From contig NZ_FNFE01000001.1 of assembly GCF_900100335.1 (NCBI RefSeq), positions 434,001-498,000 of the forward strand: a stretch of DNA of 64,000 bases, read 5' to 3'. The notes under the pieces were generated by a model. It saw nothing but the letters and a program-made list of their open reading frames with translations. It made no database searches and was not told the origin of the DNA. Shown piece by piece: positions 3-46,321 of the stretch; positions within the stretch are counted from its first letter, which is position 1, and each line of letters opens with the position of its first letter. Origin of the DNA: Natronorubrum texcoconense (lineage in GTDB: Archaea > Halobacteriota > Halobacteria > Halobacteriales > Natrialbaceae). A program made the translations under genes and the position numbers.

Positions 3-2009
3 ATCTGTGATGACTACCGGGACTATATCTTCGGTGACAAAGACGGTGACCTCCCCGATGCGCCGTCGTTAGCCGAGATCATCGATACCATGTTCGGCGA
101 TATGGATCCGCTGACTGCGGAAGAGGAGGTCACGCCGAACGATATGGCGGATATCGCATACTACGAGCTGATCGGTGTCGACTTGCTGACCGACGAACTG
201 GGCGAACTTCCCGGCGAAATGAACCCTGGCGAGATCGACGGCAGCGAGTCGCCGATCGGGTACGACGAGAGCTTCCCCGGGAGTTCCATGGAGGACGAGT
301 ATATCGATAGGATATACGATGTCGACGTCGAGCGAACGACGAGTACGTCGTCCTGGTCGCTTCCGACGGATCGGAGCGGGGCACCGGAGAACTACTCGTA
401 CGAGTATTCGGAGTACAGTTCCGGTGGACTCGAGGACGTCGACGTTTCGTTGTCCCAAGACTGGCAAACTACTCAGGGCGAGTACTCCGATCGTGATATC
501 CACAGTCTCGACATCGACGTCGAGTTCGAGTATCGGGAGCGATCGGTCTTCGAAAATAGCACGGAAAACGGGAGTGACACGATATACATCCCCCGATCCC
601 CAGAAACGCAAACGGTCTCGCTCAGTGTCGATATCGACGCCGATCTCGTGGACGATCTCGAGGTTCCCGAGAGTCGGATCCACGACGATTTCGAAGCGGG
701 AGAGGGGTACGACGACCGTGGCGCTATTGCCGGACTTTCGGACCCCGATAACTTCGAACCCGTCGTCGTCGATTCACTCGAGGCGTTGCTCAACGTCGGC
801 TCGCTCGATTCGGGAGACGATCTCGAAGACCAGATCCAAGCCGAAATCAACGATTCGATATCGGTCACACACATTCCGGATTCCGACGACTCTCCCGAGG
901 ACGAGGTCGAGAGCACGATCGAAAGCTCGATCAACGGTGCCAGTTTGACGAGCTACGACTTCAGTGATCTCGAGGGCGGATCCGATCTCGACACGGACGA
1001 ACTCGAGACGTGGCTGAAAGACGACCTCTACGAGATAAACGCGCTCGTCAAGAAAGACGTTGAGCCGGTTACAGCTGAACGAGTCGACTTCCTGCGTGGC
1101 GACTCTCCGTTCAGGGAGTTGGAAGAAAACGTCGCAGCGTTCGAAGACGAGACCATGTCGACGGGGTCGTACGACAACGTACCGGACCTGATTCGAATGG
1201 AGGTTCGGCAGGCCTACTTCGACATACTCACCGATCGAATGGCGGAGATGGCCGAGTTCCACGAGGAGACGGTCGAGGACGTCGACGACGCGATGTCCAG
1301 CGGTGATGGGGCACTCGACGACTCTCTCGGGTTCATTCAGGATATCTTCGCCGGCGACGTCGAGGAGCGGAGCGGCCATCTCGAGGGCTCTGAGCTCATG
1401 GAGGAGATGGAGTTCGAAGTCTCCGGGTCGCCGACGTACATGGATCTCGAGACGGTCGACGATACTGAAGTGCCGTCGGTTCGTCCGCCGGGCTCTACGG
1501 TGATGGATAACGACGTCGCCGGCGAACACGCGGCGCTCGGAGCCGAATACAACCAGCGGCTTCCGACACCTGGGCTGCCGCTGATTCCGTGGCCACCGGC
1601 GCTGTACGTCTTGCAACTCAACAGCTACAATCTCGATCTCGAGGGCGAGTACTCTCGATTCGAGGTTAGTTCAACGGCGGGTGATCCGGCCGACGGCGAG
1701 AGTACGACGTACGTTCGCGATCGAATGGATGTCGAGATCGATCTTGGAAACGGTAACGAGCGGAAAATCGGCGAGGTCGAACCGATCGAGTTCGACACCT
1801 CTCTCGAGATTGTGATTATCATGCCCGGGCTCATGCCGATGCAAACAGGTGCACCGCCGAATACCGGTGATCCATCGTTTGCAGATCCTGATGAAATCGG
1901 GTTCAGTGAGTTATTGGGAGCGATCGAGGATGCTCTCGATGAAGACGAGGCAGCAGCGCTGGGTCCATCCGAAGACAGTACCGAATACGATGATATAGGG
2001 CCACAGTGA
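3..2009 (+). CDS. large acidic protein of unknown function, 5' end outside the window
   Basis: The reading frame is open from base 3, ahead of the first ATG at 90, so the gene very probably begins upstream and at least 668 residues are present. The product is extremely rich in Asp, Glu and Ser, with no obvious membrane segment or catalytic motif in the visible part. The C-terminal third has a proline-rich stretch (TPGLPLIPWPPALY) followed by a beta-rich segment ending in YVRDRMDVEIDLGNG. From memory this resembles the end of DUF7286-type proteins, large haloarchaeal proteins found near archaeal type IV pilus or secretion genes, but I cannot confirm it. If right, a pilus or secretion cluster should lie upstream. 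Coding is certain; function is not known. Confidence 0.8.
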   Translation: MCDDYRDYIFGDKDGDLPDAPSLAEIIDTMFGDMDPLTAEEEVTPNDMADIAYYELIGVDLLTDELGELPGEMNPGEIDGSESPIGYDESFPGSSMEDEYIDRIYDVDVERTTSTSSWSLPTDRSGAPENYSYEYSEYSSGGLEDVDVSLSQDWQTTQGEYSDRDIHSLDIDVEFEYRERSVFENSTENGSDTIYIPRSPETQTVSLSVDIDADLVDDLEVPESRIHDDFEAGEGYDDRGAIAGLSDPDNFEPVVVDSLEALLNVGSLDSGDDLEDQIQAEINDSISVTHIPDSDDSPEDEVESTIESSINGASLTSYDFSDLEGGSDLDTDELETWLKDDLYEINALVKKDVEPVTAERVDFLRGDSPFRELEENVAAFEDETMSTGSYDNVPDLIRMEVRQAYFDILTDRMAEMAEFHEETVEDVDDAMSSGDGALDDSLGFIQDIFAGDVEERSGHLEGSELMEEMEFEVSGSPTYMDLETVDDTEVPSVRPPGSTVMDNDVAGEHAALGAEYNQRLPTPGLPLIPWPPALYVLQLNSYNLDLEGEYSRFEVSSTAGDPADGESTTYVRDRMDVEIDLGNGNERKIGEVEPIEFDTSLEIVIIMPGLMPMQTGAPPNTGDPSFADPDEIGFSELLGAIEDALDEDEAAALGPSEDSTEYDDIGPQ

Positions 2010-6608: not shown

Positions 6609-6707
6609 TCGATCGACGATCGGTTCTCTGGAACTGGTGCTCAGTAGTTGGGCGTAGTGAGCGGGGTTGTTTTGATGGAAGGTTGGTGACGGCGAATGTG
6701 TTGCTGC

Positions 6708-6950
6708 CGCTGGCGGCAATGGTTTCCACGTCCTTCCCAGCCGATTTCTGCTCGCGGGCCAACGGCCCGCTCGCATGGTTCGCGGAACCGGAGATTCCGC
6801 GCTAACGCTCGCGCCAGAGGCGCTCGCTCATCCACAGGAAGACGCTTTGCGGCTTCCACGCAGTCGCTCGTATTACTCGCGACAACCTCGCACAATATCG
6901 TCGGCCGACCTCGCGTTCGTTCGGTCGACCGACAGCGCGCGCCACCGCAC
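6708..6950 (+). repeat. dispersed hairpin-rich element, copy 1
   Basis: The segment runs from a CGCTGGCGG box to GCGCGCCACCGCAC and is homologous to 44593-44845 and to the reverse complement of 45870-46224. Shared blocks are a CCACGTCC..CCCAGCCGATT box near the start, GCAGTCGCTCGTAT, ACTCGCGACAACCTCGCACAA and the closing box. Between the blocks sit hairpins with three-base loops: GCGGGCC and GGCCCGC around AAC, and GCGCC and GGCGC around AGA. A decayed 21-base unit starts GGAAGACGC. ORFs across it are shadows with unlike composition. Confidence 0.75.
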
Positions 6951-7156
6951 GTTGATTGTCAGTTCCAGCAGTATGTACGTCGTCTGAACTCCGCAGGGAT
7001 CAACCTCCTGCTACTACTCTCGAGAATAGTTGATCGACCTCTCGTTCTCACCCGGCGATGGGTTCGACGACCGCCTGCTGATCGACAATCGACGAGTCGA
7101 ACACCGACGCGAGTGCAGGCACTGTCCTTTTTGAGCGGACCGACTCACCACCATCT

Positions 7157-7363: not shown

Positions 7364-8880
7364 CATCCTCCCCGCCCTAAAGGGCGAGGATTCCCGAGCG
7401 TTGGGATATTACGGTTCGCGGTTAGCAACCAGTTCTCGTGGGGCGAAACAGCCCTCACTACGGTCGAACAGGTGAACCGCTGGCTGTGCCAACCAGCCGT
7501 TATCCCTATCTCCGTCCCCAGAACGCGGAGCGTTCTGGTGTGCGGACGAGACGCTCTGCGTCTCGTCAACGCCATCCGTGGCGAGACTCGGGAGTACCTT
7601 TTGTCGAATATTCTCCGCACCATTCACGTCCGCGTTTGCAACCGTATCACACTCCTCACACACGTACAATCCGCGTTCGACACGCTGGTTGTCGTCCGCG
7701 TGACCGCACGCCGAACACGACTTCGACGTATTGCGTTCCGACACCAACTCCACGTCGATGCCCCCGGCTTCTGCCTTGTAGTCGAGTAGTGTCGTAAAGC
7801 GGTCGAACGCCCACCCGTGCAAGTCGAGATTCCCGTGGTCGCCCCAATTTCGGAGCTCACTCCTCTCGTCGTCCTCTCGGATGCCACCGAGGTCGCCAAC
7901 AACAAGTGTCCCGACACCTCGCTGAACGCACTCCTCTACGAGTGCTTTCGAGAGTGCGTGCAAGAAGTGCGTTCGACGACCCGTTCGTTTGCGGTCGAGA
8001 CGGGTTGCCTCTCGGGATGACGAGTCGTCGCACTTGGCTTTCTTCTTGGTGAAGTAGTATTCGTCCTCCTTGAGTGCGCTACCGGGATACAACACGGATT
8101 CACCGCCGAACGAGACCGCGGCGAAGTTGCAAATCCCAAGGTCAACACCGGCCACTTCTTCACCCGGCGGTTCCGGGTCAATGACGGTGCGACAGACGAA
8201 TTGAAGTCGCCACTCGTCGCGTTTGTAGACGGCGCGAACCTGTTGAATGTCCCACTCAGCCAAGTCAACATCCGGGCGAGTCTGGTATTCACACAGGATG
8301 AAGTCCGAACGGTGTTCTTTGAGGTTTCGACCTTTCGAGAGTCGAACGCGGGTGAACTGTGCGTCGTGCTTGAAGCCAGCCGCTTTGAACGACACAGTTG
8401 AACGTGGGTGGGAGTCTCCGTTTTTGCGGTAGCCGGGCGGTCGGGCACGGTCGTTACCGTTCTGACGCTTACCGAACCAGCCGTTGAACGCTTCAGCGAG
8501 TTCTTCGAGAACGCGCTGACTGGATTGAGAATGTAAGTCCGTGTAGCGTTCGTGGCTTTTGAGTTCGGCTTTGAAGTCCCCGTCATCGGGAATCTTGCCC
8601 GTTTCGTCCCACTGTTCTTGTGCATAGTAGCGACCGACATTCCAGAGTTTTGAGGCGGCCCATCCGAGTTGGTTGAGGTCGTCACGAACCTGTCGCTGGT
8701 TCGCTATCGTCGCCTCGAAGGTTCGGATGGTCCGACTCATTTTCTGGCTTCATAACTGGTTATGAACGCCGTTCCGTTAATAGTGTCGGTTGGCGTGGAA
8801 TATCCAGCAATGCTGGTGTCGGTTGTTTGTATCATCCAGTGACGGCGCGTATCCCGCCGTAAACGGCGAGGTTTTGCGCC
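7361..8880 (-). mobile_element. IS200/IS605-family element carrying only tnpB (IS1341-type)
   Basis: A lone tnpB gene is flanked by two similar end hairpins. At the right end CGCCC (7373-7377) pairs with GGGCG (7382-7386), loop TAAA. At the left end CGCCG (8855-8859) pairs with CGGCG (8864-8868), again with loop TAAA. The right end has the common haloarchaeal form TGACATCCTCCCCGCCC. No tnpA is present, so the element depends on a transposase in trans. In this family the guide (omega/re) RNA covers the 3' end of tnpB and reads out past the right end, here into ywbE. Exact borders are not proven, the left one least. Confidence 0.75.
7409..8740 (-). CDS. tnpB: RNA-guided endonuclease TnpB (IS605 OrfB / IS1341-type)
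   Basis: The 443-residue protein is full length. RuvC-I is at D200 (GVDLGICNF) and RuvC-III at D371 (ADVNGAENI), with a zinc ribbon between them made of C342/C345 and C361/C364. At the usual RuvC-II position the Glu is replaced by Gly (G282 in VVGDLGGI); E335 in VSERNTSKSC is a candidate relocated catalytic Glu, as reported for part of the TnpB family. TnpB is known to cut DNA guided by an RNA from the element's right end and helps keep the element at its site. No frameshift is seen and it may be active. Confidence 0.92.
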   Translation of the reverse strand: MSRTIRTFEATIANQRQVRDDLNQLGWAASKLWNVGRYYAQEQWDETGKIPDDGDFKAELKSHERYTDLHSQSSQRVLEELAEAFNGWFGKRQNGNDRARPPGYRKNGDSHPRSTVSFKAAGFKHDAQFTRVRLSKGRNLKEHRSDFILCEYQTRPDVDLAEWDIQQVRAVYKRDEWRLQFVCRTVIDPEPPGEEVAGVDLGICNFAAVSFGGESVLYPGSALKEDEYYFTKKKAKCDDSSSREATRLDRKRTGRRTHFLHALSKALVEECVQRGVGTLVVGDLGGIREDDERSELRNWGDHGNLDLHGWAFDRFTTLLDYKAEAGGIDVELVSERNTSKSCSACGHADDNQRVERGLYVCEECDTVANADVNGAENIRQKVLPSLATDGVDETQSVSSAHQNAPRSGDGDRDNGWLAQPAVHLFDRSEGCFAPRELVANREP

Positions 8881-22020: not shown

Positions 22021-22182
22021 CGAAGCCCTTATACTCGAGAGTTGGGTAGACTGTCGTAGACTCGCTGAGTCGCGGGCATCAGCGGGCACCTGTTCGGCGA
22101 CGACGCCACCACAGGTCGGGATGTGATCCGCGGGGATCGGCCCCGGTCGGGATTGAACCAGGAAACGCCCGCGGTGATAGCT
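22021..22182 (+). promoter_or_regulatory. rpl15e promoter and structured leader
   Basis: A BRE/TATA match CGAAGCCCTTATACT begins at 22021 and implies transcription from about 22054, leaving a leader of roughly 130 nt. The leader contains three hairpins: GACTC/GAGTC with loop GCT (22059-22071); ACCTGT/ACAGGT with an inner GGCG/CGCC stem and loop ACGA (22088-22116); and GATCC/GGATC (22125-22138). Such a leader could be an autoregulatory L15e target, which is inference. Confidence 0.5.
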
Positions 22183-44420: not shown

Positions 44421-44592
44421 ACCTGGTACGTCGAGTATGTGGCGTCCGCGTCAGTCCACTTTCACTTTTTCGCAGCCGGTATGGACTCGAACAGTCGATC
44501 GAGTAGGTATGCGGGTATCGAGTGAGTCTGCTGGTGGCTCGAATGCCCCTAAAAGTTCGTCCAGACGTATCCAACGGAGAGTATCTTGCTCA

Positions 44593-44845
44593 CGCTGGCG
44601 GTGATGCGTGCCACATCCTCCCCAGCCGATTCGTTCGCTCGCAAACTCGCACACTCATCCCCTGGAAGACGCGTCGCAACTTCCAAGCCGTCGCTCGTTA
44701 CACTCGCGAAGACCTCGCGCAATATCGTCGATCAGCCCTCGCTGTCGCTCACGGTTCATTCCGTTCACCGTTCGCTTTCCGAGGTTCTCACTCCGCTCGA
44801 ACCTCGCGGTCGCTCGGTCGTGATCGACAGCGCGCGCCACCGCAC
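44593..44845 (+). repeat. dispersed hairpin-rich element, copy 2 (most decayed)
   Basis: It shares the CGCTGGCGG start, the CCACATCCTCCCCAGCCGATT box, GCCGTCGCTCGTTACACTCGCG, CCTCGCGCAATATCGTC and the closing GCGCGCCACCGCAC with copy 1. The 21-base unit beginning GGAAG and ending CTTCC is kept in length but only the outer five pairs remain. No ORF across it is credible. Confidence 0.7.
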
Positions 44846-44860
44846 GTAGTTTAGAGGGTG

Positions 44861-45151
44861 CTAGAGTCGATCCGTGCTCACGTCTACGCCCGGCGGCGTT
44901 ACGAGCAGGAAGCCGCGGAAGTGGACGAGATTCCCGCCCGACTCCTTGATGTCGCGGGCGAAGCCCGACGCCAGTTCGTTCACGTCGCCCTCGACGTTGA
45001 GGACGAGCACGTTCCCCTTCGAGATCGCCTCGAGCCACTCCTCGGGCGGCGTCGTTCCATCGAGCATGCCGAGGATGATGCTGCCCTCGATGTCGAGCTC
45101 TTCGTCGATGTGCTCCTCGACGGTCCGTAAGTCGAGGTCGAAATCGCTCAT
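44861..45151 (-). CDS. DUF5779 family protein
   Basis: The 96-residue protein, with LDIEGSIILGMLDGTTPPEEWLEAI then GNVLVLNVEGDVNELASGFARDI and FRGFLLVTPPGVDVSTDRL, matches the haloarchaeal DUF5779 family. Function is unknown. It ends 15 bases from the dispersed element and is preceded by an inverted-repeat intergenic region. Confidence 0.8.
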   Translation of the reverse strand: MSDFDLDLRTVEEHIDEELDIEGSIILGMLDGTTPPEEWLEAISKGNVLVLNVEGDVNELASGFARDIKESGGNLVHFRGFLLVTPPGVDVSTDRL

Positions 45152-45783: not shown

Positions 45784-45869
45784 GCCGAGGTGGCTACCAC
45801 GCGGGGGTCCTAAGTACTCACACCCGCGCGTGCCTGTCACTGCGGTATTCGCCGACCGGTCAACCCACC

Positions 45870-46224
45870 TGCGGTGGCGCGCGCCGTGTCGCGGTGAGTG
45901 AATAGCGAACCGGACTCAACGTTGTGCGAGGTCGTCGCGAGTAGTGCGGGACCGGAGGTCCCGCAGACTATGCGAACGGGCGCTACGAGGCGGTTGCACC
46001 GCCTCGAGTTCGCGGTGCGTCGCGCCGCGCACGGCCCGTGAGCAAATACCATGAGCGACTGCTCGGAAGGCGCTTTGCGCCTTCCGGTGGATGAATGAAT
46101 GACTGAACGGAATGAACGTTAGCGCGGAACACCGTGTTCCGCAAACCATCCTCACGGGCGCAAAGCGCCCGTGAAGAGAAATCGGCTGGGGAGGACGTGG
46201 AAATTCCCCGCCGCCAGCGTGAGA
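45870..46224 (-). repeat. dispersed hairpin-rich element, copy 3 (longest, perfect hairpins)
   Basis: In reverse orientation this copy holds all shared boxes plus extra hairpins. Five are perfect with exactly three loop bases: 45945-45965 (9 bp, GGA), 45986-46006 (9 bp, TGC), 46065-46085 (9 bp, TTT), 46124-46142 (8 bp, CCG) and 46152-46174 (10 bp, AAA). The last corresponds in position to a different-sequence hairpin in copy 1. ORFs through it are not credible. Confidence 0.75.
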
Positions 46225-46321
46225 AGAAACTCGCTCCCGACACTTCCGATCACGCTTCAGTTCGATACTCCCGAATGATCGACTCCGTACACTCTTGCCC
46301 ACGCCGGCCGAACGTCGAATC

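Follow-up and report, generated by a model that had tools for sequence, protein, structure and literature searches.

A dispersed family of modular repeats with a predicted folded core in haloarchaeal genomes

Introduction

REP and REPIN sequences, which occur with RAYT (TnpA-REP) transposases, are dispersed, intergenic, nonautonomous hairpin repeats with REP units of 20 to 40 bp. The ERIC sequences of enterobacteria (roughly 127 bp) are likewise intergenic and structured and sometimes carry internal inserts at fixed places; we know of no nesting of cassettes in them. BOX elements of Streptococcus pneumoniae are arranged as boxA-boxB(n)-boxC, with fixed end modules and a variable number of internal modules, and have been reported to have inverted ends and target duplications (PMC3049150). 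Among haloarchaea, Haloquadratum walsbyi carries PATEs, whose near-terminal palindromes are related to IS605-type ends, and SMR-As, which are about 110 bp long and have inverted ends (PMC3119063). Here, we describe a family of repeats represented by three copies in a 64,000-nt stretch of the Natronorubrum texcoconense genome (contig NZ_FNFE01000001.1, positions 434,001 to 498,000; referred to here as the window). Its copies have in common a predicted folded core that is apparently under selection on a single strand.

Results

The three copies in the window are located at positions 6690 to 6970, 44575 to 44865, and 45850 to 46240 (the last reversed). An earlier note, made from the letters of the window alone, had reported that they share the same order of conserved boxes, and our analysis confirmed this. 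Further copies, for which it had proposed a search, exist: the box CCACRYCCTCCCCARCCGATT was present at 60 places in the same genome with up to 2 mismatches (i.e., a family of about 60 copies), and a BLAST search with copy 3 returned 71 pieces. A reversed control pattern of the box had a single match in this genome, even at up to 3 mismatches. Three contigs (C1, C6, and C8; 0.67 Mb) had no box match at up to 2 mismatches, compared with about 8.6 expected.

We then consider other genomes. Among the matches listed for a longer pattern, every named one was haloarchaeal (Natrinema, Haloterrigena, Natronococcus, Halogranum, Halopiger, Halorussus, Halolamina, Haladaptatus, Halobium, Halostagnicola, and others). 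Of 117 genomes sampled from the order, 47 (representing 20 of 49 genera) contained the family according to a covariance model. Positive genomes had between 1 and at least 32 copies, and no copy was detected in several sampled genera belonging to the same taxonomic family. In a sample of the phylum, the matches were confined to genomes of the same order.

Box-to-box lengths peaked at 144 to 146 nt, with longer classes near 198 nt, 257 nt, and above. The short class is a core of about 145 nt, and the longer classes are this core plus double-hairpin cassettes. The predicted fold of the core consists of a closing helix (P1), a covarying stem (P2b), and a helix (P3) with three near-invariant tandem G-A motifs; the core also carries the nearly invariant stretch GAAUCGGYUGGGGAGGRYGUGG. 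The RNAalifold consensus energy of 111 cores differed between the strands: it was -76.6 kcal/mol on the strand that is the reverse one at copies 1 and 2 and -57.4 kcal/mol on the other. The better-folding strand is therefore the plus strand at copy 3 and the minus strand at copies 1 and 2, a strand assignment that the earlier note had missed.

The 111 cores had 3,231 Watson-Crick, 682 GU, and 64 AC pairs in the predicted fold of the better strand; copies of common descent were each counted, such that these are not independent events, and some of the GU pairs belong to a hairpin in the 3' box that is itself doubtful. The imbalance was also seen in P2b (67 GU versus 10 AC) and in P2 (97 GU versus 3 AC). 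Given that a constraint on both strands would yield equal numbers of GU and AC pairs, this excess points to a constraint on one strand. In P3, the three two-by-two GA/GA loops were present in 107, 103, and 90 of the 111 copies, with covarying pairs in between. Because G-T and tandem G-A pairs are stable in DNA too, these pairs suit RNA and single-stranded DNA equally.

A separate alignment comprised 33 cores from many genera, and 92% of its cells paired. Both sides had changed with pairing kept in 147 cells, compared with 48 ± 5 after shuffling and no more than 46 with a slid partner; the covariation score was 0.536, versus 0.209 after shuffling and no more than 0.136 after sliding, where the structure was derived from the same alignment and the shuffles ignore relatedness. 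Covariation, which the earlier note had named as a check, was thus far above both controls, and the double-sided changes support its proposal that the structure rather than the sequence is selected. Regarding the folding energy of single copies, only copy 3 was strongly better than shuffled sequences (z of about -5.5, both strands alike), while on the sense strand copies 1 and 2 had z values of -2.1 and -1.1, respectively. The case for the predicted fold rests on comparison and not on folding energy.

Three types of optional double hairpin were distinguished: cassette A lies between P3 and the 3' box and measures about 61 nt, cassette B is located between P2 and P3 (about 53 nt), and cassette C is found in the P2b loop (about 57 to 64 nt). 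The hairpins with three-base loops that had first drawn attention belong here. They are real: the arm sequences of all five in copy 3 are exact, as is hairpin GCGGGCC-AAC-GGCCCGC of copy 1 (6754 to 6770). However, they are mostly parts of optional, nested cassettes, and the conserved core is located elsewhere. Cassette A lies inside cassette B in copy 3 and at locus L006, and the nested A of copy 3 contains another hairpin (i.e., three levels). Hairpin 1 of cassette A was misregistered by the pattern used for counting and the other cassette stems are near-perfect, and GT and AC counts there were consequently given no weight.

Copy 3 (45850 to 46240; predicted sense [folded] strand, plus, as for all of its parts) consists of the core with cassettes A and B, a second A within B, and an additional hairpin within that A. 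According to the consensus fold of the 111 cores, the 5' strands of P1 and P2 (TGCGGTGGCGCGCG) occupy positions 45870 to 45883. They are followed by P2b, a variable covarying stem with a GA-rich apical loop (45884 to 45922), and by the 3' strand of P2 with a conserved GCGAGG (45923 to 45931). Cassette B and its nested inserts lie between GCGAGG and GATGA (45932 to 46089; boundaries placed with reference to short copies and accurate to a few nucleotides) and include a TTT-loop hairpin (CGGAAGGCGC/GCGCCTTCCG; 46064 to 46086). The second cassette A, nested in B (45941 to 46045), has a GGA-loop hairpin (TGCGGGACC/GGTCCCGCA; 45945 to 45965) and then a broken CGGGC.../GCCCG stem; the third-level insert (45985 to 46031) contains a TGC-loop hairpin (CGAGGCGGT/ACCGCCTCG; 45986 to 46006). 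Beyond the P3 region with its tandem-GA helix (GATGAATGAATGACTGAACGGAATGAACG; 46090 to 46118), the outer cassette A (46119 to 46179) has a CCG-loop hairpin (GCGGAACA/TGTTCCGC; 46124 to 46142; alternatively, 9 bp with a 1-nt loop) and an AAA-loop hairpin (TCACGGGCGC/GCGCCCGTGA; 46151 to 46173). The conserved 3' box AATCGGCTGGGGAGGACGTGG (46180 to 46200) and the 3' side of P1 (GCCGCCAGCGTGAGAAG; 46210 to 46226) complete the element. These five hairpins span 19 to 23 nt, and the description of most of them as 21-base palindromes holds only in part. Copies 1 (core, A, and B) and 2 (core, B, and C) have the minus strand as the predicted sense strand.

Similar hairpins were seen outside the family. 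Another type of repeat, which has CACACTGATCGCATAG and TGCGATCAGGTGTGC at its ends, contains nested hairpins resembling cassettes A and C (L022, about 1430 to 1680, plus strand; L024, about 1300 to 1640, reverse; C3:83.3 kb and C2:1297.9 kb of the N. texcoconense genome); the cassettes therefore seem common to unrelated carriers. L032 (about 1375 to 1620; C2:358.1 kb) carries lone hairpins that resemble cassette C and the first hairpin of B, 3' of a gene whose product ends in a Gly/Met-rich tail. A motif, CCCCTTTCAGTCCCACC (sense strand, GGTGGGACTGAAAGGGG), adjoins the element beside the 3' box at L104, L117, L048, and L327, in several genera.

Orthologous copies in related species occupy the same site and differ by whole cassettes, namely, C in L106/L129, a B type in L108/L139, and A and B in L147/L202. 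Relative to genome G003, the differences concerned A (L002/L306, L004/L302, and L008/L289), B (L026/L294), or C (L100/L298 and L033/L300). Presence or absence was clean for B in L026/L294 and L108/L139 and for A in L002/L306 and L004/L302. At the site of copy 1, G003 has the core and B without A, and the other end of the element is lost. In three pairs (L064/L299, L027/L304, and L065/L301), the P2b stem was of another sequence class with the adjoining core still aligned, which we read as probable exchange between copies. Compensatory changes were also observed between orthologous copies (e.g., L166/L234 and L327/L337).

For eight orthologous pairs of genomes G001 and G004, the element was 90.8% identical, compared with 67.2% for the adjoining 70-nt flanks, indicating that old copies are maintained in this way by selection or homogenization. 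The contrast was smaller in the G003 comparison (boxes, 93%; flanks, 85%), for which wider flanks including coding sequence were used. Some sites were filled in one species and empty in another, with flanks too diverged to reveal target-site duplications. A subset of elements has sharp outer ends (GTTCAGTACAGG and CAGCCCTGTTCACTA).

Stems and cassettes that differ as blocks between orthologous copies would also be expected of purely parasitic repeats resembling miniature inverted-repeat transposable elements (MITEs), in which the resident copies are functionless and the apparent conservation is due to gene conversion alone; the patchy distribution and a bias toward convergent genes (see below), as for other repeats, fit this explanation as well. 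We consider it unlikely, given that the core is highly conserved also in copy-poor species (G002, G006, G007, and G008), where donors are rare, and that conversion alone is not expected to give compensatory point changes in P2b.

Genomic placement was assessed with a home-made gene caller for 164 copies and 139 other long intergenic regions; the copies were distinct in sequence and orthologues of different species were each counted, such that the P values are approximate. Convergent gene pairs flanked 60 of the 164 copies, compared with 22 of the 139 other regions (P = 5e-5), and divergent regions were depleted in copies (P = 5e-4). No gene recurred among the neighbors of the elements, which belonged just to common large families. 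When the upstream gene was on the sense strand, the element often followed its stop codon at about 60 nt (median distances, 58.5 and 66 nt), as might be expected of a cis-acting mRNA 3'-end or terminator element. We regard this explanation as highly improbable because the two orientations were equal between tandem gene pairs (41:39) despite the strand-specific fold, and no marked T-run or terminator was found downstream of the elements.

The same data bear on a multicopy, trans-acting structured noncoding RNA that would be transcribed from weak promoters of its own or by read-through, bound by a host protein via the conserved stretches, and have a host function. The one-strand fold, the GU preference, the stacked tandem GA motifs, the conservation of each resident copy, and the compensatory changes in orthologous copies are all consistent with such an RNA. 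However, no TATA-like signal was enriched upstream of the elements, for which reason we rejected a promoter of their own, and the tandem gene pairs showed no orientation bias. Moreover, the family is missing from many relatives and is thus not generally needed. On balance, we find this RNA rather doubtful.

Head-to-head pairs of elements, 20 to 120 nt apart, were present at five places in the N. texcoconense genome (C2:309.8 kb, C2:1089.7 kb, C4:339.4 kb, C4:399.9 kb, and C5:5 kb). At least one of these pairs is also present at L194 and L207.

Candidate mobility enzymes were searched for in the 117 genomes. Reverse transcriptase (RVT_1) was found in none of them, while the same search was positive in three control genomes; we therefore rejected a retro-mobile RNA (group II intron or retron). 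Y1_Tnp was detected in 25 of the 47 element-positive and 36 of the 70 element-negative genomes (i.e., no association) and was undetectable in the element-rich genomes G029, G047, G077, and G054. Dependence of the REPIN/RAYT or IS200/IS605-derived (PATE) kind was rejected on these grounds. An IS110 bridge RNA was rejected as well, since the IS110 recombinase was found in 17 of the 117 genomes and not in that of N. texcoconense.

No element matched an Rfam family at the gathering score or up to an E value of 0.5. A weak HgcC match in L007 falls in a TnpB 3' region, outside the element. A hammerhead-like GAUGAG...CGAA was dropped on inspection (the CU of CUGAUGA is replaced by GG), and a kink-turn or box C/D motif was rejected because the internal loops are symmetric GA/GA loops without a three-base bulge. 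Elsewhere in the window, a TnpB-like gene (OrfB_IS605, Cas12f1-like TNB; 7369 to 8740, minus strand) lies about 400 bp from copy 1; an Rfam sot0042 match overlaps its 3' end, and nothing indicated that this gene is part of the element. An eL15-Euryarchaeota ribosomal protein leader was matched at 22089 to 22164 (plus strand; 40.3 bits; cutoff, 33.7).

Discussion

We interpret the family as dispersed, modular, nonautonomous haloarchaeal repeats under selection on one folded strand, and we assign this interpretation a probability of roughly 0.55. The best reading is an old, BOX-like element whose folded strand would still be maintained. Three aspects of the sequence comparisons underlie it: a conserved core with a predicted strand-specific, covarying, multihelix fold; optional cassettes that occupy fixed junctions or loops, can nest in each other, and are gained or lost at orthologous sites; and stems that are exchanged as blocks for ones of a different sequence class from one orthologue to another. 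The interpretation offered in the earlier note is partly supported. Of its three options (a nonautonomous mobile element, a structured RNA, or a chromosome-organizing site), the first fits best, with the addition of a structured single strand.

The core may have spread as a mobile element via a folded single-stranded intermediate (RNA or single-stranded DNA). A trans-acting protein would recognize this intermediate, probably through the nearly invariant stretch given above and GCGAGGGAUGAG. The element would be tolerated mainly away from promoters, and resident copies would be kept by selection, by homogenization between copies, or by both. Cassettes would add helices and leave the core undisturbed.

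Several observations weigh against this interpretation. The RVT_1 and Y1_Tnp tests identified no mobility enzyme in the order sample. Close species share most of the copies that were compared, and movement must therefore be slow; the conservation of old copies is unlike that of a decaying MITE. No insertion with clean flanks was caught, so that mobility is deduced from copy number and patchiness, and target duplications were neither found nor excluded at the empty sites because of the diverged flanks. More tentatively, and with odds clearly below even, the family may represent a new class of dispersed, multicopy, structured archaeal RNA with a core bound by a host protein, evolving by swapping and nesting of hairpin domains.

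If the nonautonomous-element interpretation is right, a large group of folded elements in haloarchaeal genomes has gone undescribed, and its fold was kept across genera while the stem sequences turned over. The nested cassettes at orthologous places would then offer a direct view of a structured nucleic acid gaining and losing helices. The patchy distribution would make a trans-acting partner searchable by phylogenetic profile, and relatives rich and poor in copies provide a ready comparison.

Regarding known systems, the family differs from REP and REPIN sequences in the length of its core (about 145 nt), in the long-range pairing within that core, and in a presence that does not follow Y1_Tnp. 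None of the tests made here related it to ERIC sequences. Like the PATEs and SMR-As of H. walsbyi, its members are haloarchaeal, transposase-free repeats with palindromes, and the PATE/SMR elements are the nearest haloarchaeal precedent for small elements inserted into the palindromes of others (PMC3119063). As judged from the descriptions of those elements, our family differs in that its core folds as a whole and does not track Y1_Tnp.

The earlier note knew of no described family with this layout. This holds for the sequence: beyond the Rfam result, six forms of the box were in no text of the open-access papers searched (most subscription journals lie outside that search). The kind of layout, however, is known from BOX elements. 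Both are dispersed intergenic repeats of under a few hundred base pairs with fixed end modules and a variable number of internal modules; in both, lone modules are found, a fold is predicted if transcribed, and copies are enriched between convergent genes (PMC3049150). Correspondingly, our family exhibits discrete length classes, cassettes at fixed places, a predicted fold that tolerates modules, and enrichment in convergent intergenic regions. Unlike in BOX, the internal modules here are double hairpins, which come in several sequence types and can lie within one another, and the core is a predicted junction that includes a covarying stem as well as tandem GA motifs. The two belong to different domains of life, with no known sequence relation. 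We conclude that the family is BOX-like as a kind but not by descent and is not a member of any named family.
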